Origin: Synergistaceae bacterium
GTDB lineage: Bacteria > Synergistota > Synergistia > Synergistales > Synergistaceae
DNA length: 39,882 nucleotides
Reading direction: 5' to 3'
NCBI GenBank assembly: GCA_031263445.1
Contig: JAISFV010000118.1
Location: 1 to 39,882 of the forward strand
Shown: positions 11,705 through 39,603 of the stretch, one piece after another
How the letters are laid out: each line of letters begins with the position of its first letter
Position numbering within the stretch: position 1 is the first letter of the stretch
Made by a program: the position numbers and the translations under genes
The notes under the pieces: model-generated
The model's database searches: none
What the model was told of the DNA's origin: nothing
The model's input: only the letters and a program-made list of their open reading frames with translations

Positions 11705-11733
11705 TTGACAACAATAAACTCTTGATATATTAT
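11705..11733 (+). promoter_or_regulatory. Promoter of the GntR/PTS operon
   Basis: A perfect TTGACA (11705-11710) is followed by a 17-base spacer and TATTAT (11728-11733). Overlapping alternatives (TATATT, TATAAT) are present. AT-rich sequence with short inverted repeats (11735-11785) lies between it and the regulator and may hold the GntR operator, but no clear operator was defined. Confidence 0.55.
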
Positions 11734-11792
11734 AATAACTAGGCATTAATAACAAGAATTTATTATAATTAATCATTGAATAGGGATGAAAT

Positions 11793-12542
11793 ATGCTAGA
11801 GTTTGCCGTAGACAGGGACAGTGGAAAGGCGCTGTATTATCAGCTTTACGAATACCTGAAGGAGCGCATAATAACTGGCGACTTCAAGCCAGAGGAAATG
11901 CTCCCGTCTGAAAATGAGATGATTTCCCTTTATAAATTAAGCAGGATAACCATACGGCGTGCGATTGACGAGCTTGAAAGAGAAGGATATCTCGAAAAGA
12001 CGCGCGGCAAAGGCACAAAGGTTTTGCTAAGAAAACCGCTTAGGGACAATAACGCGCTGTACAGTTTTTCAGAGATGGCGACAATGAACGGAAATCGCAT
12101 AAGTTATGTGGTTATATTCGCTGGCAAATGCCGCGCAACATCGGAAGTGGCCGATGCGCTAGGGATTTCCGCTGTTGCGGAAGTCTTCAGGTTACAGCGA
12201 CTTATCCTGTTTAACGAGCGCATCGCTGGCCTTACAACGGCGATTATGCCGTATAAAGAGGAATTGAGGCAGGTATTCGAGGAATTTGACGGAACGACAT
12301 CACTGTACGCGAAGATAGAAAAATCCAATGTCATTATAGATTGGGCAGAGGAGGTTCTTGAGGTTGTCATTCCACCGAACGAGGTTAGAAAAGCGACATA
12401 TATAAAAAAAAATGAGCCTATGGTTTACAGTGAACACAGGTCGTATGACAGGAACGACAAGATAGTGACGGTTACATATTCATACTTTATTTACAATACG
12501 TTTAAATGCTCGTTTAAGGCTAAGAGAGGATGGACTCGATGA
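11793..12542 (+). CDS. GntR family (HutC/UTRA) transcriptional regulator
   Basis: The 249-residue protein has an N-terminal winged helix-turn-helix (about residues 10-75) containing LPSENEMISLYKLSRITIRRAIDELEREGYL, the GntR signature. A C-terminal UTRA ligand-binding domain follows. UTRA regulators usually sense a phosphorylated or free sugar-like substrate of the adjacent pathway and act as local repressors. It is the first gene of a tightly spaced operon, and its stop overlaps the start of the first amidohydrolase (ATGA). Sequence here is visibly more AT-rich than the flanking regions. The ligand is inferred to be the PTS substrate or its phosphorylated form. Confidence 0.88.
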   Translation: MLEFAVDRDSGKALYYQLYEYLKERIITGDFKPEEMLPSENEMISLYKLSRITIRRAIDELEREGYLEKTRGKGTKVLLRKPLRDNNALYSFSEMATMNGNRISYVVIFAGKCRATSEVADALGISAVAEVFRLQRLILFNERIAGLTTAIMPYKEELRQVFEEFDGTTSLYAKIEKSNVIIDWAEEVLEVVIPPNEVRKATYIKKNEPMVYSEHRSYDRNDKIVTVTYSYFIYNTFKCSFKAKRGWTR

Positions 12543-13273
12543 AGTATTATGACTTCCACTCACATCTCGGAACTACAAGTTCGGGGGAAGCAAACGACTC
12601 TGACATGCTTGTGGAGCAACTTAGAGCCTATGGTGTGGAAAAGGTGGGAATCAGCAACCTGACAATGTTGACGATGGAGGAGCGTAACGATCTCATTTAC
12701 GACGCGAAACTGAAATACCCTGATTTTATTAGGGCATACATGTATGTGAGTCTAAATCACTCAGGCATATACGATGAGATAGACAAGCGTCTCGGTGACC
12801 AAAAATTCGACGGCTGCAAGATCGTAACATCGCGCGACGGGATACGTGGGGACAACTGCGCGGCAATTTTCAAGGTTCTGCCGTACATAGAAAAATACGG
12901 CAAGGTAGTCCAGGTATTTGCGGGGGCTAATCCGTATTGTACGCCATTTGTATGGGCAGATCTGGCAGAAAAAAGGCCTAAACTGAAGCTCTGCTTCACT
13001 CACATCGCTTGCAGGGAATACGGTTTTACTCTCGTCAATCTTGTAAAAAATCTTCCAAACGTTGTTGTGGAAACGTCACAGCAGTTTGAGTATTTCATAC
13101 TGAAAAAGGCGATTGACGAACTCGGCTCGGAGCGTATGCTCATGGGTACGGACTGGCCGTACAAGCCTACAAATACAGAGATAAGCAAATTCAGGCACCT
13201 CGGCTTGACTGACGACCAACTTGAGAACATATATTATAAAAACGCGGCGAGACTATGGGACGAGGAGCTATAA
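12539..13273 (+). CDS. Amidohydrolase_2 family metal-dependent hydrolase (first paralogue)
   Basis: This 244-residue TIM-barrel protein of the amidohydrolase-2 type includes lactonases, decarboxylases and amide hydrolases among its relatives. H7 and H9 (DFHSH) match the strand-1 HxH. H155 (FTHIA) matches the strand-6 histidine and D205 (GTDWP) matches the catalytic strand-8 aspartate. The strand-5 histidine is not evident. The ATG at 12539 is chosen because AGAGAGG lies nine bases upstream and it overlaps the gntR stop as ATGA. An ATG at 12530 lacks such a site. It overlaps PTS IIA by one base (TAATG). A role in hydrolysing the imported compound is inferred. Confidence 0.8.
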   Translation: MKYYDFHSHLGTTSSGEANDSDMLVEQLRAYGVEKVGISNLTMLTMEERNDLIYDAKLKYPDFIRAYMYVSLNHSGIYDEIDKRLGDQKFDGCKIVTSRDGIRGDNCAAIFKVLPYIEKYGKVVQVFAGANPYCTPFVWADLAEKRPKLKLCFTHIACREYGFTLVNLVKNLPNVVVETSQQFEYFILKKAIDELGSERMLMGTDWPYKPTNTEISKFRHLGLTDDQLENIYYKNAARLWDEEL

Positions 13274-13662
13274 TGAAAATTATCATTGCTTCTCACGAAA
13301 ATTTGGCACAGAATATGCTCCAGACCGCCGAAATTTTTCTTGGCAAGACGGAGGATGTATCTGCGGTTGGACTTTACGAGGGTGACAGCCCGGAGGATTT
13401 TGAGGAGATGCTCCTCAAGCTTGTTGGCAAGGATGATGAACAGACACTGTTCCTCTGCGATATAAAATCGGGAACGCCGTTTAACTCGGCGTGCCGGTTT
13501 TCACACGGCAGGAAGAATATCAGCGTGTTGTATGGTATGAATCTTGCGATGGTTTTGGAGTGTATAACATCGCGTAGCGAAATGAACGTACACTCGCTCG
13601 CAGAGCGCATAGTTGGCATGATGTCCAAGACATACGGGGCGTTTAGGCATGATACACAATAA
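13273..13662 (+). CDS. Mannose-family PTS EIIA component
   Basis: This 129-residue cytoplasmic IIA protein of the mannose/fructose/sorbose PTS would accept phosphate from HPr and pass it to IIB. The phosphorylated histidine is H8 in IIASHENLA. The rest follows the EIIA-Man fold, including DIKSGTPFNSACR. It is a stand-alone domain rather than an IIAB fusion. The start ATG shares a base with the amidohydrolase stop, and GAGGAG lies upstream. HPr and Enzyme I are not in the window. The transported substrate is unknown. Confidence 0.88.
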   Translation: MKIIIASHENLAQNMLQTAEIFLGKTEDVSAVGLYEGDSPEDFEEMLLKLVGKDDEQTLFLCDIKSGTPFNSACRFSHGRKNISVLYGMNLAMVLECITSRSEMNVHSLAERIVGMMSKTYGAFRHDTQ

Positions 13663-13709
13663 ACGGCTTGCTTCTACAGATTTTCAGGAAATGAGAGGCG
13701 GAGACAGCA

Positions 13710-14210
13710 ATGAAAATATTGGAAACGAGGATTGACGACCGGCTTATTCACGGGCAGATTGTCACAGCGTGGATTCAAGCGACAGGAGCTGACGCGATTA
13801 TCGTTGCAGATGACAATGCGGCAGGAGACGCATTGTCGCAGTCGATATTGAAAATGGCTACTCCTGACAGTGTGCAGCTTATCATAAAATCCTTGTCCGA
13901 TGCGGCAGAACTTATCAAAAAAGATAAGTCTGAAGTTGGCGTTTTGCTTATCGTGAGCAACGCCTCTGGCGCCAGAAAACTGTTGGAGTCAGATGTCAAA
14001 CTCGAAAAAATCACGCTGGGAAACATCACGAACAAGAAGTCGGGGCAAGAGCGGAAAATGGTCCTCAAATTCATCTTTGCATCAGAAGATGACGCGGAAA
14101 ATCTACGGGCCATATCAAACATGGGTGTTATTATCACGGCGCAGACCGTTCCAAACGACAAGGCGTATGATGTCATGGAGATTATGAAAAAAGCAGGATT
14201 TTATAAATAA
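13710..14210 (+). CDS. Mannose-family PTS EIIB component
   Basis: This 166-residue IIB protein of the mannose/sorbose PTS would transfer phosphate from IIA to the incoming substrate. The active site is H14 in the family-defining DDRLIHGQI. A later TLGNITNKKSG block matches the usual substrate-side loop. GGCGGAGA precedes the ATG. It follows IIA by 47 bases and precedes the membrane components, the standard order for this PTS class. Confidence 0.92.
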   Translation: MKILETRIDDRLIHGQIVTAWIQATGADAIIVADDNAAGDALSQSILKMATPDSVQLIIKSLSDAAELIKKDKSEVGVLLIVSNASGARKLLESDVKLEKITLGNITNKKSGQERKMVLKFIFASEDDAENLRAISNMGVIITAQTVPNDKAYDVMEIMKKAGFYK

Positions 14211-14244
14211 TAAATAAATTTTATATCTGGAGAGGAGCCTGTGC

Positions 14245-15012
14245 ATGAACTACTTGTTTATTAGCATTGCGTGCGGTTTGCTCGCTTGGATCGCGCAGAT
14301 GGATCGCCTCATGGTTCATATGTTTATCTATCGCCCTATAATTTTGGGTCCGATCACCGGTCTAATTCTCGGCGATGTTTCGACAGGACTTGAGATGGGT
14401 GTCACGATTGAAATCATGTTTCTGGCCACTGTTTTCGTCGGTACAGCGATTCCATGTGATGAGGTTATGAGTACGATAATCAGCACGGCGTTTGCTGTTG
14501 CTGCAGGCGGAGATACGTCGATAGGAATAGCGGCTGCCCTCCCTCTCTCTGTAATAGGGCAGATTATAAGGTACATACGTAGCTCCACATATCATTTATG
14601 GACAAATATGCAAATGGAAAAGGCTGTAGCGCGAGGAGATTTAAAGGGCATGTATTTTTGGCACATCGTCATGCCGCTCATTATCAATTTGATAGTTTTC
14701 AGTGTTCCGACCTTCATCGCAGTATACGTAAGCGCTGACATTGTTCAGGCTCTCATCAACGTCATACCTGAGAAGCTTATCGACGGAATAGGCGTAGGCG
14801 CCGGAATGATAGGCGCGGTAGGACTCGCGATGCTGCTCAAATCGATAAATGTCAAAGACGCTTGGCCGTATCTGCTTATCGGTTTCTTCCTGTCTGCATT
14901 CCTCAACGTCAACATGATAGGCATAAGCATTATAGCTGTAGCCATAATCGCAATATCCATATACTCGAACCAGAAGAACGAAAAATCCAAAAACAGAATA
15001 GCATTAGACTAA
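14245..15012 (+). CDS. Mannose-family PTS EIIC membrane component
   Basis: The 255-residue integral membrane protein with about seven hydrophobic segments matches the EII-Sor (IIC) family. It shows the N-terminal RPIILGPITGLILGD block and the conserved GxxxEIMFLATVFVGTAIP segment. With IID it forms the translocation channel. GAGAGGAG precedes the ATG. The lysine-rich C terminus is probably cytoplasmic. It is followed 14 bases later by IID. Confidence 0.9.
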   Translation: MNYLFISIACGLLAWIAQMDRLMVHMFIYRPIILGPITGLILGDVSTGLEMGVTIEIMFLATVFVGTAIPCDEVMSTIISTAFAVAAGGDTSIGIAAALPLSVIGQIIRYIRSSTYHLWTNMQMEKAVARGDLKGMYFWHIVMPLIINLIVFSVPTFIAVYVSADIVQALINVIPEKLIDGIGVGAGMIGAVGLAMLLKSINVKDAWPYLLIGFFLSAFLNVNMIGISIIAVAIIAISIYSNQKNEKSKNRIALD

Positions 15013-15026
15013 GGAGGTGCGAAATA

Positions 15027-15863
15027 GTGGAACAGAAAGAGACGGCAGTCAAGCGGATCACCAGAAAAGACCTTTGGAAATGTTTTTGGAGTCAAATGTT
15101 CTTTGAACTCGGCAACGGCGCATTGAAGGAAGAGGCCCCCGGTTTCGTTACTTCCATGGTTCCCATAATAGAAAAAGTCTACGATAGCAAGGAGGATAAA
15201 ATAGAAGCATATAAGCGTCACACGGAATATTACCTTTCAGAGGGGCGCGCGGCTGGCCTGAACGTAGGTATCGCCGCAGCCATGGAAGAACGGCTTGCTC
15301 TGCAAAGGGATATTGAGCCAGAGAGTATCAACGCAGTAAAGTCGGCGCTTATGGGACCACTTGCAGCGCTCGGAGACAGCATAATTCACGGCACATTCAG
15401 GCCACTGTTCGCAGGGATCGCCTGCTCCCTTGTCATCGCGAGCGGTTATAAGAGCGTATTCGGACCAATTATGTTCGTAGTTATCATGACTGCCATAGGG
15501 TTTCTCGTGAGATACTACGGTACATTCCTCGGCTACTCAAAGGGTACCGAAATAATTGACGCCATTCAGAACAGCGGGCTTGTCCGTAATATGACTCATT
15601 TAGCTGGAACAGCGGCGTATTTGTTGGTAGGAGGCTTTTCGGTAGGGCTAGTGACGGTGAAAATACCGTGGGAGTTCAAGTTTGAAGAGACAGTTGTTTC
15701 ATTTCAGTCCATGCTCGATGGCCTCTGTCCGGGACTTCTTTCAATGTTGCTCATTGGACTCATGTACTTCCTCATGACAAAGAAGAAGATAAGCCCAACG
15801 TTCCTGTTGTTCGCGTGCCTCGCGTTAGGAATCATAGGCAAATATGCGGGCTTCCTCGGATGA
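15027..15863 (+). CDS. Mannose-family PTS EIID membrane component
   Basis: This 278-residue IID protein completes the mannose-type transporter. Family features include ITRKDLWKCFWSQMFFELG at the N terminus, and FNTxPxxxxxxxG-like and GPLAALGDSIIHGT segments. GPLAxxGD is the best conserved IID motif. C-terminal hydrophobic helices follow. The GTG at 15027 is chosen because a near-perfect AAGGAGGTG lies seven bases upstream. A longer frame opening at 14862 would overlap most of the end of IIC. It is followed by the second amidohydrolase. Confidence 0.9.
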   Translation: MEQKETAVKRITRKDLWKCFWSQMFFELGNGALKEEAPGFVTSMVPIIEKVYDSKEDKIEAYKRHTEYYLSEGRAAGLNVGIAAAMEERLALQRDIEPESINAVKSALMGPLAALGDSIIHGTFRPLFAGIACSLVIASGYKSVFGPIMFVVIMTAIGFLVRYYGTFLGYSKGTEIIDAIQNSGLVRNMTHLAGTAAYLLVGGFSVGLVTVKIPWEFKFEETVVSFQSMLDGLCPGLLSMLLIGLMYFLMTKKKISPTFLLFACLALGIIGKYAGFLG

Positions 15864-15894
15864 CAATCGTTCTTAATGATTAAGGATAGCACTT

Positions 15895-16641
15895 ATGCCT
15901 ATTATTGATTTTCATTCGCATATCATTAGGGATCGCGAGACGAAGGAATATTGCACGGAAGCCCTTCTGCGCGATATGGGCGATAATGCTATCGATATAA
16001 GAATGATCGCTGCGATGGAGGGAAAATCAATCTCCCATCAGAATTTCTTCGTTTCGCATCTCGCTGCTGAACATCCTCAAATGCTCATACCATGCGCTGC
16101 CATAAATCCCAAGGAGGACAACGGCGTTGAGGAAATGCTGAGAGTAGCGGAGGAGGGAAACTTTAAGGCGATCGAGCTTGACTCGCTTGAACATGGATAC
16201 CTGCCGGAAACGTGCGATGCCCTTGACGAAATTTTCGACATTTGTCATGAGGCAGGTTTGGTCGTGTGTGCGTTTACGGGCTGGGGTCCTAGGACAGCGC
16301 CTATGCAGTGGGCTTATTATGCGAAACGTCATCCCAAAGTGCCGCTTGTGTTGCTGCATATGGGCGGATACGATTTCGGTTACAACTGCATAGAAGTGGC
16401 GAAAAAATTTCCGAACATATATGTCGAGACATCGGACGTATACGAATTGCCTATAATGCACATCGCGTTGCGGGAAATACCACACGAGAAGATCCTTTTC
16501 GGTTCGCAATACCCAGAGAAAATAACGGCATGCTCAAAGGACTTCTTCGACATGTTTGACCTCAGTGACGAGGATAGAGAGCTTTTCTTTTGGAAAAACG
16601 CCGCGAGACTTCTTAAGATAGAAGGCTTGAACGGGATTTAA
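15895..16641 (+). CDS. Amidohydrolase_2 family protein (second paralogue, altered active site)
   Basis: This 248-residue TIM-barrel protein is paralogous to the first amidohydrolase of the same operon and similar in length and layout. H7 and H9 (DFHSH) and H155 (LLHMGG) are kept. The strand-8 position that should be Asp reads Q205 (GSQYP, against GTDWP in the paralogue). Asp at this position is the general catalytic residue across the superfamily, so this copy may be inactive, use other chemistry, or partner the first. AAGGAT precedes the ATG. It lies between IID and the ADP-ribosylglycohydrolase. Substrate unknown. Confidence 0.78.
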   Translation: MPIIDFHSHIIRDRETKEYCTEALLRDMGDNAIDIRMIAAMEGKSISHQNFFVSHLAAEHPQMLIPCAAINPKEDNGVEEMLRVAEEGNFKAIELDSLEHGYLPETCDALDEIFDICHEAGLVVCAFTGWGPRTAPMQWAYYAKRHPKVPLVLLHMGGYDFGYNCIEVAKKFPNIYVETSDVYELPIMHIALREIPHEKILFGSQYPEKITACSKDFFDMFDLSDEDRELFFWKNAARLLKIEGLNGI

Positions 16642-16667
16642 CGCACTTTGAGCAAAGGGAGGACATT

Positions 16668-17702
16668 ATGAGTGCTCTGATGTTTGACAAAATACTTGGC
16701 TGCCTCATAGCGGCAGGTGTTGGTGACGCGATGGGAGCCCCCTCAGAGGGCATGTGCAAGAGTGAGATTGTTGAAGCGTATGGCGGGAGAATTGAGGGGT
16801 TTGTTGACGGTAAGGACAACGAGTACTCATACGGAAACCATATCGGCGAGATAACAGACGATGCCTCTCAGATGTACGAAATGGCAAAGGCCGTCGCTGA
16901 TTGCGGCGGACATCTCACAGTGGAAGCCGCCGCTGCCGCTCTAGTTACTTGGAGCGAGTCGTACCCAAAATACTACCCGCGCAACGCAGGCCTTACGACG
17001 TCAAAGGTCATTAATGCTTTGCGTGGAGGCGGAAACCCGTATGAGCTTGGCAAGCTCGGGAAAATGGTTGGGCGAGGGACGACGAACGGCGCTGCGATGC
17101 GCGTTGCCGCAGCAGGGTTGTGTAAACCAGGCGATTATGAGCTAGCGATAGAAAACGCCGTGAATATGTGCCGTCCATCTCACGCTACTCAGCACGCCTT
17201 TTCCGGCGCTTGCGCAATAGCTTGCGGTATAAGCGAGGCTCTTATCAGTACGGCTACGACCGTCTCAATCGTAAAGGCATGCGTCTATGGAGCGAGGAGA
17301 GGAGAGGAGATAGGGCTAAAAACCGCTAGGAAGGCATCTGGGATACGCGTTATTAACAACATAGGCTCTGCTATCCAGGCGGCTCTTTTGAGCGCTGATA
17401 TGGTTGATGCGGAGGACAGCATAGATGCCGTCACTGGCAGCGACGGCTCGATTCAGTCATCAGTAGCCGCCGTGTTGGGTCTGTTTTTAGCGGCTGACGG
17501 CGATATTCGTAAGACGATTTTAAGCTGCGCGAACCTCGGCGGCGATTCCGACACGAACGCTTGTATAGCTGGAATGCTGTGCGGAGCGTTCAAGGGTTGC
17601 GGTACAATTCCTGAAGACTGGATCGGACAGTTTAAAGAGGCAAACCCAATGATAGACTTTGAAAGTGTTGCGGCAAGGCTGTGTGCAATCACAGAGACGT
17701 AA
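16668..17702 (+). CDS. ADP-ribosylglycohydrolase family protein
   Basis: This 344-residue all-helical enzyme belongs to the ADP-ribosylglycohydrolase (DraG/ARH) superfamily, which cleaves N- or O-glycosidic bonds to ribose using two Mg2+ ions. Expected metal ligands are present: GDAMGAP near residue 19, T63-D64-D65, and D293-S-D295-T296 in GGDSDTNA. The family also includes enzymes acting on small nucleoside-like compounds. Here the operon context suggests a role on an imported, phosphorylated glycoside rather than on modified protein. GGGAGGA precedes the ATG. It is the last gene of the operon, and no clear terminator follows, although a 7-bp hairpin lies at 17805-17842. Confidence 0.87.
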   Translation: MSALMFDKILGCLIAAGVGDAMGAPSEGMCKSEIVEAYGGRIEGFVDGKDNEYSYGNHIGEITDDASQMYEMAKAVADCGGHLTVEAAAAALVTWSESYPKYYPRNAGLTTSKVINALRGGGNPYELGKLGKMVGRGTTNGAAMRVAAAGLCKPGDYELAIENAVNMCRPSHATQHAFSGACAIACGISEALISTATTVSIVKACVYGARRGEEIGLKTARKASGIRVINNIGSAIQAALLSADMVDAEDSIDAVTGSDGSIQSSVAAVLGLFLAADGDIRKTILSCANLGGDSDTNACIAGMLCGAFKGCGTIPEDWIGQFKEANPMIDFESVAARLCAITET

Positions 17703-31197: not shown

Positions 31198-31923
31198 TCA
31201 GACTCCGTTGTCCGGCGGCGAAATGACAACCATCACGCGCCCGCATATGCGAGGCCCCCACTCTTCGGACAGATCCTCGTGGGTGACGTGTATTTTCTCC
31301 CCGTTCGAAGCCAGGAGGTCTTTCCCGTCCGGGGTGGCGTATATCTTTTTGATGCTCGCCCTCCCGTCGTAAATCACCATGGCAACGGAACCGGAAAACA
31401 CGTCTTCAGCGGGGTTTATTATGACCGTACTCCCCTCTTTTATGCCGTAGCCTTCCATGCTGCGGCCTTCCGTTTTTACGGCGTAGGGCAGCATGTCCGG
31501 TCGCAGCGTGCCTACCTCTTTGAGGGTCGCGGCAACCGCGTCGCCGATGGCGTAACTGTCAAACACTTCGAAGCCGGCGCCGCAGCAGGCGGCGATGCTT
31601 GACATTGGCACGTATACTTTGTCCCCGAGCGCGTACAGGCCGCAGTCTAGCCTTTCCAGCCCGGCGTCGGCGAGCATCTCGATGTCTTTCCGTCCCCCGT
31701 CTTGGACGAGTGCCGGGCCGACGCCGCGCAAAAGCCACTCGCTCGAAAGCGCGGTCGTTTCGAGGAAGCCTTTCAAGAACTGGTACGACGGCTCCTTTTC
31801 TCCCCGCTCGATCTGGGCGAGGTAGCTCCTGTCAGCTTTAATGCTGTCCGCCAGCCGTTGCTGCGAAAGATTCATGGATACCCGGTATTCTCTGATGCGT
31901 TCGCCGACGCCGCCGATCTGCAT
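31198..31923 (-). CDS. HTH-S24 (LexA/CI-like) repressor
   Basis: This 241-residue repressor has an N-terminal Cro/CI helix-turn-helix (LSQQRLADSIKADRSYLAQIERGEKEPS, residues 19-46) and a C-terminal S24 peptidase. The catalytic serine is S155 (EGRSMEGYG) and the lysine K192 (ASIKKIY). An Ala-Gly pair (A116-G117) lies 38 residues before the serine, where LexA-type self-cleavage occurs. This suggests induction on DNA damage. The ATG at 31923 is preferred because earlier starts (GTG 31950, TTG 31971) fall inside the promoter region. It diverges from the umuD-like and umuC genes and probably represses them and itself. Confidence 0.82.
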   Translation of the reverse strand: MQIGGVGERIREYRVSMNLSQQRLADSIKADRSYLAQIERGEKEPSYQFLKGFLETTALSSEWLLRGVGPALVQDGGRKDIEMLADAGLERLDCGLYALGDKVYVPMSSIAACCGAGFEVFDSYAIGDAVAATLKEVGTLRPDMLPYAVKTEGRSMEGYGIKEGSTVIINPAEDVFSGSVAMVIYDGRASIKKIYATPDGKDLLASNGEKIHVTHEDLSEEWGPRICGRVMVVISPPDNGV

Positions 31924-31957
31924 CTTTCCCGTCGATGTTATTTGTATCACTCCTGTC

Positions 31958-31985
31958 TTGACATGACGCAAATAGCACCTATAAT
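31958..31985 (+). promoter_or_regulatory. Consensus promoter of the umuD-like/umuC genes
   Basis: A perfect TTGACA (31958-31963) and perfect TATAAT (31980-31985) are separated by 16 bases, about 85 bases before the TTG start of the umuD-like gene. The -10 box lies inside the inverted repeat 31972-31996. Confidence 0.75.
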
Positions 31986-31996
31986 ATCGATGCTAT
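31972..31996. promoter_or_regulatory. Candidate operator of the S24 repressor
   Basis: The inverted repeat ATAGCA (31972-31977) / TGCTAT (31991-31996), with a 13-base centre, straddles the -10 box of the rightward promoter and a probable leftward -10. Its position would let one repressor dimer shut both directions. Confidence 0.55.
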
Positions 31997-32070
31997 GATT
32001 ACCAAAAAAAAATTGCAGATACAATTAATATCATTTTAACACAATTGCGCCTTTTGCGGGGGGTGGCGTT

Positions 32071-32367
32071 TTGCCTTTTGATTCGAGTTACACGGACTTC
32101 GACAAGCATAGGTATTCCGATTCACAGGATTTGCTGGCCGGGATAGCGCGGCGCATCGTCCGCGACCCGTTGGCGACGCACGTGATAAAGACGGCCACGC
32201 CGTCCGGCAAGACCCGTTATCTCGTCGTCGACAGGGCGAGAACGCCGGAGGAGGGCAGCCTCGTCATCGCCGTCACCGATTGCGGCCTCCGCCTCGGCCG
32301 GGTCAGACGGGCTGTTTCGATGAAACACATATGGGGAACGGTAACCTGGTTCCTGCAAGAAGGCTGA
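32071..32367 (+). CDS. UmuD-like small protein lacking catalytic residues
   Basis: The 98-residue protein resembles the C-terminal half of UmuD/LexA. YLVVDRARTPEEGSLVIAVTDCGLRLGRVRRA corresponds to the UmuD strand region LLIVDR...TPxxGDIVIA...FTVKRL, and the end KHIWGTVTWFL matches the UmuD ending. No GxSM serine motif is present, and the lysine position reads Arg (GRVRRA). It would therefore be a pre-processed, non-cleavable UmuD' analogue. The TTG start is preceded by GGGGGGTGG. Its stop is three bases before umuC. The assignment is by eye and should be checked structurally. Confidence 0.65.
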   Translation: MPFDSSYTDFDKHRYSDSQDLLAGIARRIVRDPLATHVIKTATPSGKTRYLVVDRARTPEEGSLVIAVTDCGLRLGRVRRAVSMKHIWGTVTWFLQEG

Positions 32368-32370
32368 ACC

Positions 32371-33615
32371 GTGCTGGCGCTATGCGACTGCAACAATTTT
32401 TTCGTCTCCTGCGAGCGGCTGTACCGCCCTGAGCTGCTGGGACGGCCCGTCGTCGTCCTCTCAAACAACGACGGCTGCATCGTCGCGAGGTCGAACGAGG
32501 TCAAGGCGATGGGCATAGCGATGGGACAGCCGTACTTCCAGGTGCAGGGGCTTCTCAGGCGGAAGGGCGTCGTCGTGTGTTCCGGCAACCTCGTCATGTA
32601 CAAGGAAATATCCGAGAAGGTCATGAAGCTGCTGTCGCGCTTCACGGACAGGATGGAGGAATATTCCATAGACGAGGCTTTTCTCTGCCTCCCTGCCTCG
32701 GCGGGCGACCCGGCCAAATTCGCGGCCGCGATCCGCGAGAAGGTTGACAGATGGATCGGGATACCGATATCCGTAGGCCTGGCCTCCACCAAGACGCTCG
32801 CCAAGCTCGCCTCCGAGAAGGCCAAGAAAACTGAGTCCGGCATCCTGGAGATAACTGCGGGGAACGCGCGCGGGCTGCTCGAAGCGACGGAGATAGGGGA
32901 TGTCTGGGGGATTGGGCGGAAGACGGCGGAACAGTTGAACAGGCACGGTGTTTTAAACGCCGCTCATTTCACGGACAGGGATCCTGCGTGGGTGAAAAAA
33001 CGATTCACCGTCAGGGGCCTCATGACGCAGATCGAACTCAAAGGCCAGCCGTGCCTCCCGCTCGTCACGGAGGCCGCGCCGCCGAAGTCCATTCAGGTGT
33101 CCCGCACGTGGGGGAACGTCCTGGAGTCATTCGGCGACGTGAGCCTCGCGATGACCGACAACGTGTTGAAAGCCGCGCGCCAGCTCAGGCAAAACGGGCT
33201 TGCCGCCGGGGTGATATCGGTCTACATGCGCTACGGATACCGCCATCACGGCGAGTGCGGGTACCTGACCAGGGATCTCATTTTCCAAAGCCCTGTGTTG
33301 AGCGACTTCGAGCTATCATACGCGGCCCGTCTGCTGATCCAGGAAATCTTTCAGCCGGGCCGCAAGTACACGCAGGGCGGGGTGATCCTCTGCCGCTTCA
33401 CCGACGCGCGGTTCCGCCAGCGCGAGCTGTTCGACGAAAAGTATTACAGGGAGCGCTCGAAGCTGGAGCGGTTCTCCCATGCCGTGGACGAGATAAACGG
33501 GCATTTCGGCGAACGCGTCATTTACCCTGCTTCCCTGGCCGTGAAGGAGAAGATATGGCGTCCGAACCGCAAGCACCTGTCGGAAAAATGGGAAGGCCTG
33601 GAAGTGCGTTCTTAG
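32371..33615 (+). CDS. umuC: Y-family DNA polymerase (UmuC, Pol V catalytic subunit)
   Basis: This 414-residue translesion polymerase has palm-domain residues D6 (LCDCNNFF) and D101-E102 (YSIDEAF). GIPISVGLASTKTLAKLASEKAKK and the helix-hairpin-helix IGDVWGIGRKTAEQL are present, as is a C-terminal UmuC-specific region with RPNRKHLSEKWE. The length matches the E. coli protein (422). The GTG start has GAAGG upstream and follows the UmuD-like gene by three bases, so the two are co-translated. Regulation by the divergent S24 repressor is likely. Confidence 0.93.
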   Translation: MLALCDCNNFFVSCERLYRPELLGRPVVVLSNNDGCIVARSNEVKAMGIAMGQPYFQVQGLLRRKGVVVCSGNLVMYKEISEKVMKLLSRFTDRMEEYSIDEAFLCLPASAGDPAKFAAAIREKVDRWIGIPISVGLASTKTLAKLASEKAKKTESGILEITAGNARGLLEATEIGDVWGIGRKTAEQLNRHGVLNAAHFTDRDPAWVKKRFTVRGLMTQIELKGQPCLPLVTEAAPPKSIQVSRTWGNVLESFGDVSLAMTDNVLKAARQLRQNGLAAGVISVYMRYGYRHHGECGYLTRDLIFQSPVLSDFELSYAARLLIQEIFQPGRKYTQGGVILCRFTDARFRQRELFDEKYYRERSKLERFSHAVDEINGHFGERVIYPASLAVKEKIWRPNRKHLSEKWEGLEVRS

Positions 33616-34452: not shown

Positions 34453-35628
34453 CTAATTTATAGCCTGCAAGGCTTGCTTAATGGCATTAAGCGCTTGTTT
34501 CAAGATTTTTCTTGGGCAAGCTATATTCATTCTGACAAAAGATGCTCCATTCTCACCGAACTCATGTCCCTGGGTCAGTGCGACAGATGCTTTTTGGATA
34601 AAAAAATCCTCGATTTCATGCTGGGTTAGATTAAGCCCTCTGCAATCTATCCACAGCAAAAACGTACCTTCTCCATTTATGAGTTTCATTGCAGGAATAT
34701 TCCGTTTGAGATAATCTTCTACAAATTTTCGATTGTCTTCAATATAACGAATAACCTGCGTGAGCCAGTCGTGCCCTTTTGTGTACGCAGCTTCCAATGC
34801 TATCGCGCCAAATAAGTTGTCCAACCGCGTTTGCGCAATATTCATGACCTCGTCATATCTGGCTTTGACTATAGGATTAGGGATTATAACAGTCCCCATC
34901 TGCAAACCTCCTAAATTGAAGGTTTTATTTGTTGAATAACACGCCATTGAATTATCAGCAAATTCCTTGTTGACGGAATAAAAAGGAATATGTTTGTAAT
35001 CGCTAAAAACAATGTCACTATATATTTCGTCAGATATGACGAACGCGCCGTTTGATAAACACATCTCCCCGATTCTGGAAAGCTCCTCGAATCCCCACAC
35101 CCGCCCGGTAGGATTGTTCGGGCTCGACAAGATCAGCATTTTAGTTCCTTTAAGCCTATGTTCGAGGTCGTCGAAATCAATTCTATAGCCTTCATCCGTG
35201 CATATCATGGGATTGACTGAAAGTTCTCTGCCATTTTTCTTAACCACATCAAAAAGAGGGCCATAGTTAGGAGACTGGAGTACGATTTTTTCTCCTCTCT
35301 TCGTCATCAGGTGTACCATTGTGTTTATTGCGTAGATGACCCCAGGCGGAGAAAAAGAAATCCACTCTTTTTTTAAATCAACCGCATGTCGACTCTTGAA
35401 CCACCCAATTATAGCCTCGACATACCCTTTTGTTCGCATGGTATAGCCCAAGATCGGATGTTCCATTCTCTCTCGGATGGCTTCCAAGATAGGGGCTGCG
35501 CAGGGGAAATCCATATCAGCGACCCAAAGCGGTATAACGCCATCTTTACCGAAATTCGAGAAAGTATCGTCCCATTTGTACGAATCAGTGTTTTTTCTGT
35601 CAATAAGTCTATTAAAATTATAGCGCAT
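34453..35628 (-). CDS. patB: MalY/PatB-type aminotransferase, cystathionine beta-lyase
   Basis: This 391-residue fold-type I PLP enzyme resembles MalY/PatB, which splits cystathionine and other cysteine S-conjugates to thiol, pyruvate and ammonia. The PLP lysine is K235 in YSTNKTFNLGGLQ. The N terminus NFNRLIDRKNTDSYKWD and VADMDF are family hallmarks, and SSPNNPTGRVW binds the cofactor. The ATG at 35628 is preferred as in relatives. A TTG at 35637 has AGGTG closer by. It lies 18 bases downstream of the NhaC gene, forming an AT-rich two-gene operon. The gene name is a family assignment. Confidence 0.87.
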   Translation of the reverse strand: MRYNFNRLIDRKNTDSYKWDDTFSNFGKDGVIPLWVADMDFPCAAPILEAIRERMEHPILGYTMRTKGYVEAIIGWFKSRHAVDLKKEWISFSPPGVIYAINTMVHLMTKRGEKIVLQSPNYGPLFDVVKKNGRELSVNPMICTDEGYRIDFDDLEHRLKGTKMLILSSPNNPTGRVWGFEELSRIGEMCLSNGAFVISDEIYSDIVFSDYKHIPFYSVNKEFADNSMACYSTNKTFNLGGLQMGTVIIPNPIVKARYDEVMNIAQTRLDNLFGAIALEAAYTKGHDWLTQVIRYIEDNRKFVEDYLKRNIPAMKLINGEGTFLLWIDCRGLNLTQHEIEDFFIQKASVALTQGHEFGENGASFVRMNIACPRKILKQALNAIKQALQAIN

Positions 35629-35646
35629 TTCGCTCAAGCACCTGCG

Positions 35647-37068
35647 TTACGCCACTAAAGCGGTTATGACCCACAGAATTATTGAAATAGCGCCTATTAA
35701 AATGGCATAAGGAAGCTGCGTTCGAACATGATCCATATGGTCGCATGCTGCGCCAAGCGAAGAAAGCACCGTGGTGTCTGATACCGGTGAACAATGGTCG
35801 CCAAACAAGCCGCCGCTGACAACAGCGCCGACTGCTGCATACATCAGAGTCCCTAGGTTCCCATCGGTAAAAGAATAAGCCATTGGTATGGCAATGGGGA
35901 CACATATAGCGTAAGTACCCCATGAAGTTCCTGTGAAAAACGAGATGACAGCGCCCATTACGAACGTCATGGCGAGAAACAATGAAGGCGTCATCCAGCC
36001 TTCGGTTATAGACAGAATGAAATCCGCAGCTCCCATATTTTTCGTGATGGTATTGATGCAGTATGCCAGAGCCAGAATAAGCGTAGCTGACAGGACGCTC
36101 TTAATGCCGCCGACCGCAGTTCCCACCATATCTCCGACATTGGAGAAAACCTTCCTTAACGAAAGCTCAATTAATAGATATAAGTCGGCGTATATGAAAC
36201 ACTCTAAAATTTTCACGCTGCCTTTAGTAAGATAAGAGTAAACTGCAATCGCTACCAAAATTAACACAGGGATACCGAAATCTAGCACGATATTGGGTTC
36301 GACACTTGATTTTCCCCTCTGTTGCAACTCATCAAGCTCCGTTCCGATCAGCGGTATCGCTCCGTCCGCAATGACTTTTCCGGTATCCTTCGCTCGCTTT
36401 TCAGCAATCCGCATCGGGCCAAAATCCGGAATAATTTCTAACGCATTTAATAGCACGAACAGAACCATTAAAATAGCGTAAAAATTAAACGGGACTGATT
36501 TGATATATACCGCGACGCCCTGATCAACTGAAGTCACCGCTCCTCCTAAATCCGCTATTAAACCGGCCACATACGCACCCCATGCCATAAACGGCACGAT
36601 GGTGCAAATGGGAGCGCACGTCGAATCCAATATAAAAGAAAGTTTTTCGCGGGAAATTTTCTTTTCATCGGTCAGCGGACGCATTACGATACCGCGAATT
36701 AGCGGACTCATGTAGTCATCTACCGTAAAGAGCCCAATAAGCCACGTAGTAAATTTAACTCCTCGCTTAGATTTTATCTTGCCTGAGATTAATTTGACGA
36801 ATGCATCTACAACTCCGGCTCTAACAAAAAAGGCGATCATTATACCGATGGAGATTTGTATTGACAGTATCCAAATGAAGTCTTCATTGCCCAAAGCTTC
36901 CTGGGTCAGTGTCGCTAGGCCAGATGCCGGGCTCATGCCCAGTATCAAGACGCCGGATAAGCAACCTATAAAAAGCGCAAAGATCGCATCTTTTTTCCAA
37001 AACGCAAGAAAGAGCGTAATAGCAAGAGGGACAAGAGATAGTATCCCGTGGTCTGCAGCTTCAGGCAT
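35647..37068 (-). CDS. nhaC: NhaC family Na+/H+ antiporter-type transporter
   Basis: This 473-residue membrane protein has about eleven hydrophobic helices and NhaC-family sequence. TVDDYMSPLIRGIVMRPLTDEKKISREKLSFILDSTCAPICTIVPFMAWGAY and the conserved GGLFGDHCSPVSDTTVLSS are both present. Some family members exchange Na+ for protons, while others exchange organic or amino acids. Pairing with a C-S lyase suggests that the substrate may be a sulfur amino acid or its product. AAGGAGGAG precedes the ATG. The region is visibly AT-richer than its surroundings. Confidence 0.85.
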   Translation of the reverse strand: MPEAADHGILSLVPLAITLFLAFWKKDAIFALFIGCLSGVLILGMSPASGLATLTQEALGNEDFIWILSIQISIGIMIAFFVRAGVVDAFVKLISGKIKSKRGVKFTTWLIGLFTVDDYMSPLIRGIVMRPLTDEKKISREKLSFILDSTCAPICTIVPFMAWGAYVAGLIADLGGAVTSVDQGVAVYIKSVPFNFYAILMVLFVLLNALEIIPDFGPMRIAEKRAKDTGKVIADGAIPLIGTELDELQQRGKSSVEPNIVLDFGIPVLILVAIAVYSYLTKGSVKILECFIYADLYLLIELSLRKVFSNVGDMVGTAVGGIKSVLSATLILALAYCINTITKNMGAADFILSITEGWMTPSLFLAMTFVMGAVISFFTGTSWGTYAICVPIAIPMAYSFTDGNLGTLMYAAVGAVVSGGLFGDHCSPVSDTTVLSSLGAACDHMDHVRTQLPYAILIGAISIILWVITALVA

Positions 37069-37329
37069 TTTTATTTTCTCCTCCTTATATTTTGTTTATC
37101 GGAACCACATTAATCCGCTAGTTATGGGATAACTTTAAATCGGCTTTTCATGCAAAAAAGACTTCATGAATTTATCCCCCATATTTTATAAGATATTGCG
37201 CTGTGTGCGATATTATAACATGTCAAATGTCCAAAGTTATCGTTTTGTGGTTTCTGGTTGTTATCGGCATCGTTAAAGTGCATCATTTAAAATCCTGAAT
37301 TTACGTGCCGAGCGCCGCGAGGGGTTAAT

Positions 37330-37422
37330 TCAACTCCATCCGTTATCCTCCATCGAAAGCCACTTCTCATAGCCTTTGGCAAACTCACGCCACATATTAA
37401 GCTCTGACCCGTAACCCCTCAC
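37330..37422 (-). CDS. Possible 30-residue peptide or gene remnant
   Basis: A GTG-started frame of 30 codons has aromatic and charged composition (MWREFAKGYEKWLSMEDNGW), more protein-like than chance. Its GTG overlaps the TGA of an upstream fragment (GTGA). Such overlaps are common among small phage genes. No ribosome binding site is evident and the product is not recognised. It could be a degenerate end of a former gene. Confidence 0.25.
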   Translation of the reverse strand: MRGYGSELNMWREFAKGYEKWLSMEDNGWS

Positions 37423-37514
37423 AGCACCGAATCAAGCCCGTCAATCAGATAGCGCCTGACTGCCCTGCCGCAGACGACCCTGCCGCCCTTATGCGCTCTC
37501 TGCGTCGCCGTGCG
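37419..37514 (-). pseudogene. Possible gene fragment without start
   Basis: An open frame of about 30 codons ends in GRAVRRYLIDGLDSVL. It begins at a stop codon with no start or ribosome binding site, just after the end of the restriction-like gene. It may be the C-terminal remnant of a deleted gene. No family was recognised. Confidence 0.2.
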
Positions 37515-37527
37515 TCACTCGTTTACC

Positions 37528-38643
37528 CTATTGCTCCTCCGCAGCTTTTTGATATGTCCTGAGCGCGTCAACAAGGGCATCCTCGTGGTCGTAGATTTCT
37601 TCTAATGAATTTAATTTGACGCGTGTCTCTGTTTTTTTATTCCACTTTTCAGGGTCAGGCGCTCCGATTAAGGCAAGTTGCATATTAGCCTTTGTATTAA
37701 AATAAAAACGGCATATTGGTTTAAGATTTGAATTTTTATACAAGACGCTGCTATATGATTTTGCGTCGCGGAACGACAGGTCTTGGACGGGGACATACTT
37801 TCTCAGGATCGCCCTGACGATGTTGCACCCGTCGATCTCGTCTTGTGTCGTAATTTTTCCAGAATCGGGCGAAGCCTCTACTTTGTCAGCAGTCTCAGGT
37901 TCTGGCTTGGATGAAGAGGGTTTCTCCTCTTGCATTGCCGATTCCAGACGCTCGTTCAATTTTTCGTTCAAGAACTGGTTCAACGCATTTTTTGTGTACA
38001 CCTTAAAGGCATCGACGACATTAGCAAACGCTTTCCCTGGATACTCTATGCCCATTATGACGCATCTGACGAAAGCCTCCTCTGGATTGGACATCTGTGA
38101 TTCGATATAACGTTTGATCTCTCTGGTGTATTTCAGCTCCGTGGCGGCGCTGAGGATGCTGTCGATTTTAAATTCGGGCTTCGCGTATTTTCCGAGTTCT
38201 TTGATTTCGTGGTTCTTTATCTCGCGGATATCGAACTGAAAATAAGGTTTCGCATCGAGCTGGCTTTCGCGGTCGATGTCTGTATAGAATTGATAAACTA
38301 AGCCGTTGGTCAGGATTGCTATTTTCGTATCCGGAAGCGTGACGAAATATCGGATGAGCTGGTTTTTATTCTCGTCTGTCAGGCTAGCGCCGCTCCATTT
38401 GCACTCGATGATCATAATCGGCTTGCCGTCGCTCAGTATGGCGTAGTCGATTTTTTCCCCTTTTTTCGTGCCTACATCCGCGATGAACTCCGGCACGACT
38501 TCGGACGGATCGAAAATGTTATAACCGAGAGCTTGTATAAGGGGCGCTATCAAGGACATTTTTGTAGCCTCTTCCGTTTGTATGCTATTGCCCCTTTCAC
38601 TGAAAATTTTCACTATCTGGCGTATAGAATTTTCTAAATCCAT
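37528..38643 (-). CDS. Restriction endonuclease-like protein (HsdR N-terminal-type PD-(D/E)XK domain)
   Basis: The 371-residue protein has an N-terminal nuclease-like domain matching the HsdR_N/type I restriction R-subunit family. The site is D66 (EKIDYAI) followed by E80-C-K82 (IMIIECKW), and NQLIRYFVTLPDTKIAILTNGLVYQFYTD is typical. There is no helicase. A central helical part and a Ser/Pro/Glu linker (about 240-270) lead to a C-terminal domain of about 100 residues that was not recognised. GAAGGTGGAG precedes the ATG. It lies 66 bases downstream of a CI-like repressor, so it would be expressed with it in the lysogen. A defence or exclusion role is inferred. Confidence 0.75.
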   Translation of the reverse strand: MDLENSIRQIVKIFSERGNSIQTEEATKMSLIAPLIQALGYNIFDPSEVVPEFIADVGTKKGEKIDYAILSDGKPIMIIECKWSGASLTDENKNQLIRYFVTLPDTKIAILTNGLVYQFYTDIDRESQLDAKPYFQFDIREIKNHEIKELGKYAKPEFKIDSILSAATELKYTREIKRYIESQMSNPEEAFVRCVIMGIEYPGKAFANVVDAFKVYTKNALNQFLNEKLNERLESAMQEEKPSSSKPEPETADKVEASPDSGKITTQDEIDGCNIVRAILRKYVPVQDLSFRDAKSYSSVLYKNSNLKPICRFYFNTKANMQLALIGAPDPEKWNKKTETRVKLNSLEEIYDHEDALVDALRTYQKAAEEQ

Positions 38644-38709: not shown

Positions 38710-39603
38710 CTACCCGTTCAGCGGCTTCGTGACGACCTGGACGACCTTGCCCACGACGCTGAAAAAGTCATTTTCTATGTCCTCTCTGCTGAAAGTCCGG
38801 GGCTGGTAGCGTCGGTTCGCGGAACGGATCGTCACGCCCCCGTCGTTCTCCCAGTACACCCACTTGACGGCGTACTCCCGATTCGGCCCGTAGCAGACGA
38901 GCGCCGCGTTCCCGTCTTTCACCTCCACGGCGTGGTTGACGATGATCTTGTCCCCGCCGCGTATCCCCGCCCCCTCCATGCTGTCGCTTTCCATCCGGAC
39001 GATGAAAGGGGGACGCTTTTCCTCTATAGGCCCCAGCTCCCTGCGGTTGACGCATTCCCATCCCTCGATGGCCATGCCCACATCGTCGAACGGAACGCCC
39101 TCCCCCAGGTCGAAATCCGGATTTATCGCGACCACGGGGATTTTAATGAGTTCGCAGTCCGCCGGGCATTCGCAGTCTTTGCCCGTTTTCCCGGGCGCTG
39201 CGCCCGAACCGGGCGCAGCCTGGCCTTGCCCGGACGGGAAGAACGGACGGAGGTTCGGGGGCAAGGGCGGCGGGGCGTCACCTTCCTCGCCGCGAACCTT
39301 CCTGATCTCACGCACCTCTTCCCCGCCCCGGAGCGCGCCTGACAAGGCGGTGGCGTTGCTCATTTCGCCTTTCAGGGAATGTTCTTCTGAGTTGTCTGTC
39401 TCGCCGATGAGGTAAGCGACGGAGGTATCCAATGCTTTTGCCAAATTTTGTAGGTTTTCCCGCTCTGGTAAATATTTTCCCCTCTCCCAATCAGACACAG
39501 CGGTTTTAGAAGACCCAATTAATTTGCTTAAATCTTCTTGGGTGAGTTTTTTTGCCTTTCTAAGAGCGCGAATTCTTGATTTTATAACTTCCCCGTCTGA
39601 CAA
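38710..39603 (-). CDS. CI-like prophage repressor (HTH-S24)
   Basis: This 297-residue repressor has an N-terminal XRE helix-turn-helix (LTQEDLSKLIGSSKTAVSDWERGKYLPE, residues 20-47) and a Pro/Gly-rich linker (about 90-145). Its C-terminal S24 domain has S208 (MESDSMEGAG) and K247 (YAVKWVYW). No Ala-Gly or Cys-Gly pair is seen in the roughly 55 residues before S208, where self-cleavage usually occurs. The start is TTG with GAGGTGA just upstream. It is divergent from a Cro-like gene, with three related operator-like sites between them, as in lambdoid immunity regions. Confidence 0.85.
   Translation of the reverse strand: MSDGEVIKSRIRALRKAKKLTQEDLSKLIGSSKTAVSDWERGKYLPERENLQNLAKALDTSVAYLIGETDNSEEHSLKGEMSNATALSGALRGGEEVREIRKVRGEEGDAPPPLPPNLRPFFPSGQGQAAPGSGAAPGKTGKDCECPADCELIKIPVVAINPDFDLGEGVPFDDVGMAIEGWECVNRRELGPIEEKRPPFIVRMESDSMEGAGIRGGDKIIVNHAVEVKDGNAALVCYGPNREYAVKWVYWENDGGVTIRSANRRYQPRTFSREDIENDFFSVVGKVVQVVTKPLNG

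Follow-up and report, generated by a model that had tools for sequence, protein, structure and literature searches.

In the yegTUV-yegW system of E. coli, uptake, phosphorylation, an ADP-ribosylglycohydrolase-family protein (ADP-GH) and a GntR regulator are brought together. A 2024 paper linked YegTUV to ADP-glucose and glycogen, and the system is still without a clear function (PMC10819704). The same elements occur in an eight-gene operon on contig JAISFV010000118.1 of a Synergistaceae bacterium, within the 39,882 nt analysed here as a whole (the window, to which all coordinates refer). The two systems differ in that a phosphotransferase system (PTS) takes the place of the nucleoside permease and PfkB kinase of yegTUV, and in that the E. 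coli system has no amidohydrolases; a pathway of the yegTUV type would require PfkB, whereas the window operon has a PTS instead of a kinase. The operon (11793-17702, all genes on the + strand) encodes a GntR/UTRA regulator, a first amidohydrolase-like protein (AH1), mannose-family IIA, IIB, IIC and IID, a second amidohydrolase-like protein (AH2) and an ADP-GH. It is a PTS catabolic operon, a known kind; its unusual part is an enzyme swap amongst its relatives, which can be tested.

A conserved cassette with an exchangeable, putative cleavage slot

The first relative, on a Klebsiella pneumoniae plasmid, was found by a tblastn search of plasmids with AH2 and has the order AH1-IIA-IIB-IIC-IID-AH2-ADP-GH-GntR. 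An alignment of the window and Klebsiella AH1 proteins was then the query for a scan of 84,980 genomes, in which the top eight matches had 40-78% identity and the next only 29%. The operon is present in all eight: Citrobacter braakii, Hungatella effluvii, H. hathewayi, Clostridium polynesiense, Collinsella phocaeensis, Neobacillus kokaensis, and metagenome-assembled genomes of an Oscillospiraceae and an Erysipelotrichaceae bacterium. Further searches with AH1, which partly recovered copies already in the set, gave one positive genome among 246 Enterobacteriaceae-level relatives of Citrobacter, two among 391 Clostridia, two among 349 Bacilli and six among 248 Coriobacteriia. Amidohydrolases at 26-29% identity (Niallia, Shinella, E. 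coli) do not lie inside such operons, and scanning the genome collection with ADP-GH alone gave no relative, its patterns falling on poorly conserved stretches.

The set thus comprises 16 related operons, in genomes or on plasmids of Klebsiella, Citrobacter, Clostridia, Bacilli and Coriobacteriia, or 17 with the window. IIB, IIC and IID are present in all 17 and AH2 in 16. We define the cassette as GntR, AH1, a mannose-family PTS and AH2 together, all of which the window has; the window regulator is 31-36% identical to the regulators in most related operons. The cassette is best read as a mobile, rare and conserved PTS-linked catabolic unit. The Klebsiella plasmid, CP067510, is the sole plasmid record in the collection with a complete cassette by DNA similarity, and no close DNA match to its operon was found in 5,426 E. 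coli genomes. On CP067510 (203 kb) the cassette lies near tellurite (ter) genes and an IS630 element. The two Hungatella operons additionally hold a dihydropyrimidinase. No description of the operon was found in the open-access literature searched, a weak negative since subscription papers lie mostly outside it.

What varies is the gene for the putative cleaving enzyme. This slot holds an ADP-GH in three operons (window, Klebsiella and Citrobacter, in each case after AH2), an IF-2B-like protein with a BtpA-family protein in 12, and BtpA alone in two. An earlier note on this DNA, made from the sequence, had linked the PTS to both amidohydrolases and to the ADP-GH, and had named a lack of shared conservation as grounds for refuting this. 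Across distant bacteria both amidohydrolases indeed accompany the PTS, but the ADP-GH does not, being replaced by BtpA, with or without the IF-2B-like protein, in the other operons.

In a core tree built on IIB, IIC, IID and AH1, the window is grouped with IF-2B/BtpA operons of Bacillota and Collinsella (100/100), with Klebsiella and Citrobacter in another part of the tree, and a clade of the three ADP-GH operons is rejected (p-AU 3e-7). The ADP-GH gene tree likewise rejects a clade of the three slot genes (p-AU 3e-5) and places those of Klebsiella and Citrobacter as sister to a kinase-linked gene on a Salmonella plasmid (100/99). With a common origin rejected by one tree for the ADP-GH operons and by the other for their ADP-GH genes, two entries of ADP-GH into the slot are probable and are the simplest reading, each at the expense of BtpA or IF-2B plus BtpA. 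Independent replacement in one slot in turn suggests that ADP-GH and BtpA perform the same job. The glycosidic-bond cleavage proposed in the earlier note gains indirect support from this replacement as far as its logic goes; its attachment to ADP-GH itself holds for only three of the 17 operons. We do not propose an isomerase step for the IF-2B-like protein, as it lacks MtnA's catalytic Cys and Asp.

Proposed uptake, phosphorylation and cleavage of a glycoside

The four PTS proteins, IIA (13273-13662; Pfam EIIA-man, 4e-23), IIB (13710-14210; PTSIIB_sorb, 2e-40), IIC (14245-15012; EII-Sor, 3e-61) and IID (15027-15863; EIID-AGA, 4e-75; GTG start with AAGGAGG upstream), are separate polypeptides of the mannose/sorbose family; the NCBIfam equivalog cut-offs for galactosamine, N-acetylgalactosamine and mannose systems were all missed. 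Genes for HPr and EI lie side by side on another contig of the same genome, and two related operons are adjoined by EI or by HPr and EI, so the PTS is predicted to be able to work, in line with the phosphorylating transporter first proposed.

In the pathway that we favour, the PTS would import a glycoside and phosphorylate its sugar before cleavage, and the cleaving enzyme would then free a sugar phosphate and an aglycone. That enzyme would be ADP-GH in the window, Klebsiella and Citrobacter, and BtpA in the others, usually joined by the IF-2B-like protein, whose family binds sugar phosphates. AH1 would be a TIM-barrel metalloenzyme with either the substrate or the aglycone as its target, with AH2 a degenerate and probably non-catalytic partner, and the GntR/UTRA regulator would respond to the substrate or the product. 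The sugar would most likely be ribose-like, and the product then ribose 5-phosphate. For this overall reading, PTS uptake and phosphorylation of a ribose-like glycoside followed by glycosidic cleavage by ADP-GH or BtpA, we judge the chances to be evenly balanced.

The neighbourhoods of related ADP-GHs give hints on the nature of the substrate. The window ADP-GH (16668-17702; PF03747, 3e-54), whose acidic di-metal motifs are intact, belongs to a clade whose members have either a kinase or a PTS close by, which would fit an enzyme acting on a phosphorylated glycoside. Related ADP-GHs lie beside PfkB and a transporter in Yersinia, E. coli (two kinds), Plesiomonas, Salmonella, Pantoea, Lactiplantibacillus, Paracoccus and genome G036, and directly after a beta-glucoside PTS, without a kinase, in Listeria and Enterococcus. 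Amongst 177 Clostridia, the ADP-GHs scoring above 300 bits, in three genomes, all adjoin PfkB, as does one weaker match. No PfkB, PTS or other reference gene was found in ten control windows.

Ribose and nucleoside genes recur beside clade members: PnuC, RpiB, nucleoside permeases, and a nucleoside hydrolase with nicotinate phosphoribosyltransferase; another neighbour set consists of purine nucleoside phosphorylase, IF-2B and a class II aldolase. These genes belong to ADP-GH loci other than the window's own operon, for which a ribosyl substrate would follow by analogy; the earlier suggestion of a ribose-like or nucleoside-like glycoside is reasonable in this light. A more specific proposal, which we make tentatively and hold to be somewhat improbable when taken as a whole, is that the PTS carries a nucleoside-like riboside, perhaps an alpha-N-riboside, that ADP-GH and BtpA are interchangeable phospho-riboside hydrolases, and that a pair of active and inactive amidohydrolases finishes the aglycone. 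Known ADP-ribosylarginine hydrolases cleave the alpha anomer.

The same neighbourhoods bear on the best-surviving alternative, that the PTS cargo is a conjugated hexose or amino-hexose (such as an N-glycosylamine or Amadori-type compound, as in the glucoselysine and fructoselysine systems), that ADP-GH or BtpA strips the amine from hexose 6-phosphate, and that AH1 processes the aglycone. The mannose-family PTSs whose substrates are known transport hexoses and derivatives of amino-hexoses, fructosamines included, and near relatives of the window ADP-GH in E. coli M8 and Yersinia lie beside PfkB and a SIS-domain protein, SIS being the fold of fructosamine-phosphate deglycases. However, a SIS protein was seen in none of the 17 operons, and it is ribose and nucleoside genes that recur by other ADP-GHs of the clade. 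We therefore regard a hexose conjugate as unlikely, whilst taking it seriously.

Some of these ADP-GH loci deserve mention in their own right. In a large nucleoside cluster of genome G336, two ADP-GHs in tandem are accompanied by PfkB, nucleoside-type ABC permeases, an RbsB-type binding protein, purine nucleoside phosphorylase, an MtnA-like IF-2B protein and a class II aldolase. Genome G036, from the window's phylum, also has a tandem pair of ADP-GHs, preceded by PfkB and a sugar ABC transporter; the second has changed metal motifs (TDA for TDD, ETS for DTD), making another active/degenerate pair. In genome G237, GntR, a PnuC-type transporter, PfkB and ADP-GH occur together, which suggests a nicotinamide-riboside-like substrate for that ADP-GH.

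The amidohydrolase pair and the remaining alternatives

AH1 (12539-13273; Amidohydro_2 TIM barrel, Pfam 2.5e-19) and AH2 (15895-16641; Pfam 2e-25) are paralogues with 24% identity, and both give confident AlphaFold models (pLDDT 89.7 and 90.6). Five metal-ligand positions (HxH, a third His, a fourth His and Asp) were read in all copies. The AH1 proteins of 16 of the 17 operons have the full site; the exception is the window copy, which retains HxH, H155 and D205 and has Phe for the third His (position 127). AH2 never has the full set: none of the 16 copies has the third His and 15 of them lack the Asp, the window copy having Phe and Gln at these positions, and in Klebsiella and Citrobacter HxH and the fourth His are lost too. 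Because its metal ligands are never all kept, AH2, conserved yet degenerate, is probably a non-catalytic partner of AH1. Among solved structures, those of resorcylate decarboxylase, ACMSD and PDC hydrolase come nearest to AH1; with decarboxylases amongst these fold neighbours, the AH1 reaction need not be hydrolysis. Hence the two amidohydrolases of the earlier note stand as two members of the family, but their catalysis was overstated, since AH2 and the window AH1 lack canonical ligands, and hydrolysis of an amide or lactone by both is not supported.

These fold neighbours, one of them a lactonase (PDC hydrolase), would also suit a lactone or acidic-sugar pathway, in which an aldonate or lactone enters through the PTS, AH1 performs the main chemistry as a lactonase or decarboxylase, and the slot proteins merely bind sugar phosphate. 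It is also in favour of this that no other enzyme of the cassette is as strictly conserved as AH1. Such a pathway leaves unexplained why a glycosidase-family enzyme was recruited on two separate occasions, and the window AH1 itself lacks one canonical metal ligand; we consider it quite improbable. The Pfam family is best known for reversing protein ADP-ribosylation, and the window ADP-GH, with its intact TDD and GDSDT metal-site motifs, might be a DraG- or ARH-like regulator of this sort, perhaps with a subunit of the PTS or an amidohydrolase as its target, but this non-catabolic role is very improbable, given that the protein misses the NCBIfam equivalog cut-offs for DraG (69.4 bits against 337) and Tri1 (28.5 against 490), carries a TNGAAM loop where a different residue precedes NGAAMR in aligned DraG sequences, is encoded by the last gene of a catabolic operon, is replaced in relatives by a TIM-barrel family, and has relatives that pair with sugar kinases and transporters.

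Several points weigh against glycoside uptake, phosphorylation and cleavage as we propose it. Both substrate and activity are read from gene content. AH1 was the search query, which makes its presence in all 17 operons a matter of construction. The window is a long branch in the core tree and in the ADP-GH tree, which brings some risk to the reading of two ADP-GH entries, and the BtpA of the two BtpA-only operons is distant (26-27% identity). The IF-2B-like protein need not be a sugar-1-phosphate isomerase, and the window copy of AH1 may be impaired or altered. The association with kinases fails for the ADP-GH family as a whole: in the Clostridia, of the nine genomes with matches below 220 bits, eight showed neither PfkB nor a PTS next to the gene, as judged by the reference families used. 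Finally, we know of no mannose-family PTS of known substrate that carries a nucleoside.

If the proposed pathway is correct, a glycoside class would be added to PTS cargo, and there would be a conserved pair of active and degenerate amidohydrolases to study. A riboside in particular would be a new PTS substrate class and would give BtpA/SgcQ its first catabolic role. Because ADP-GH and BtpA share one slot of a conserved operon, the operon would offer direct tests for two poorly understood families, the metabolic ADP-GHs (such as YegU) and BtpA/SgcQ. The genera with the cassette include human gut members (Hungatella, Collinsella, Klebsiella, Citrobacter), and the substrate may thus be a gut or diet compound.

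The locus, its origin and its counterparts

The gene order given in the earlier note is confirmed for all eight genes, whose products all pass curated Pfam cut-offs. The junctions are, in order, -4 (ATGA), -1 (TAATG), 47, 34, 14, 31 and 26 nt, and these overlaps and short gaps agree with a single transcript unit. As had been remarked, the usual sugar genes (kinase, isomerase, aldolase, deaminase) are absent from within the operon. Upstream of the regulator gene (11793-12542; HutC-type, Pfam GntR 8e-19 and UTRA 1e-15) lies a putative sigma-70-type promoter, TTGACA-N17-TATTAT (11705-11733, + strand), a consensus match only, at 11 of 12 positions; it is the best of 15 candidates in the region, where nine would be expected by chance, and its first base is also the position at which the stretch described in the earlier note begins. 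A perfect 10-bp inverted repeat, ATTATAATAA and TTATTATAAT (11729-11738 and 11760-11769, + strand), overlaps its -10 box and is possibly an operator for the GntR regulator, though an AT-only repeat could also be due to chance.

Horizontal acquisition, suspected earlier from composition, is likely because the operon is AT-rich (GC 0.475 versus 0.59 in the left and 0.576 in the right flank) and has no ortholog in the phylum. No AH2 ortholog was found in 188 genomes of the phylum, the matches in its other genomes having at most 32% and mostly less than 30% identity, and the best match to ADP-GH in the phylum outside the window is only 35% identical. Genomes of the same genus gave no ADP-GH match and distant AH2 homologues only; an empty insertion site was sought in them, and the right-hand neighbour gene is absent from these genomes. 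Although the ADP-GH gene has a higher GC (0.534) than the operon, this was rejected as a sign of separate origin, the gene's GC3 resembling that of the other operon genes.

A second AT-rich stretch of the window (34453-38643, GC 0.445) is possibly another acquired island; by eye, its products resemble MalY/PatB aminotransferases, NhaC antiporters and, in one protein, type I restriction N-terminal domains. At 31198-33615 and 38710-39603, a UmuC-like polymerase and two repressors of XRE/LexA-like type, also recognized by eye, may be what remains of a mobile element.

Amongst known systems other than yegTUV-yegW, three invite comparison. An E. coli M8/Yersinia operon (GntR, ADP-GH, SIS, PfkB and phytase-like esterase, with UshA added in Yersinia) encodes ADP-GHs that are among the closest to that of the window (34-35% identity), but has a kinase, an MFS transporter and a SIS protein and lacks both PTS and amidohydrolase. 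On the M8 chromosome this uncharacterised operon also includes a KdgM porin, and its core stretch recurs in 404 of the 5,426 complete E. coli genomes. The Listeria ADP-GH locus, which we take to be the bvr locus (a bgl-type PTS with ADP-GH), and its Enterococcus counterpart resemble the window operon in that a PTS importer is directly followed by ADP-GH with no kinase. They differ in having a beta-glucoside IIBCA PTS, a PRD-domain protein instead of GntR and no amidohydrolases, and their ADP-GH is only 23% identical to the window's. The E. coli sgc operon combines a PTS with SgcQ/BtpA and an epimerase; here a PTS, though of a different type, adjoins a BtpA-family protein, as it does in 14 of the 17 operons.

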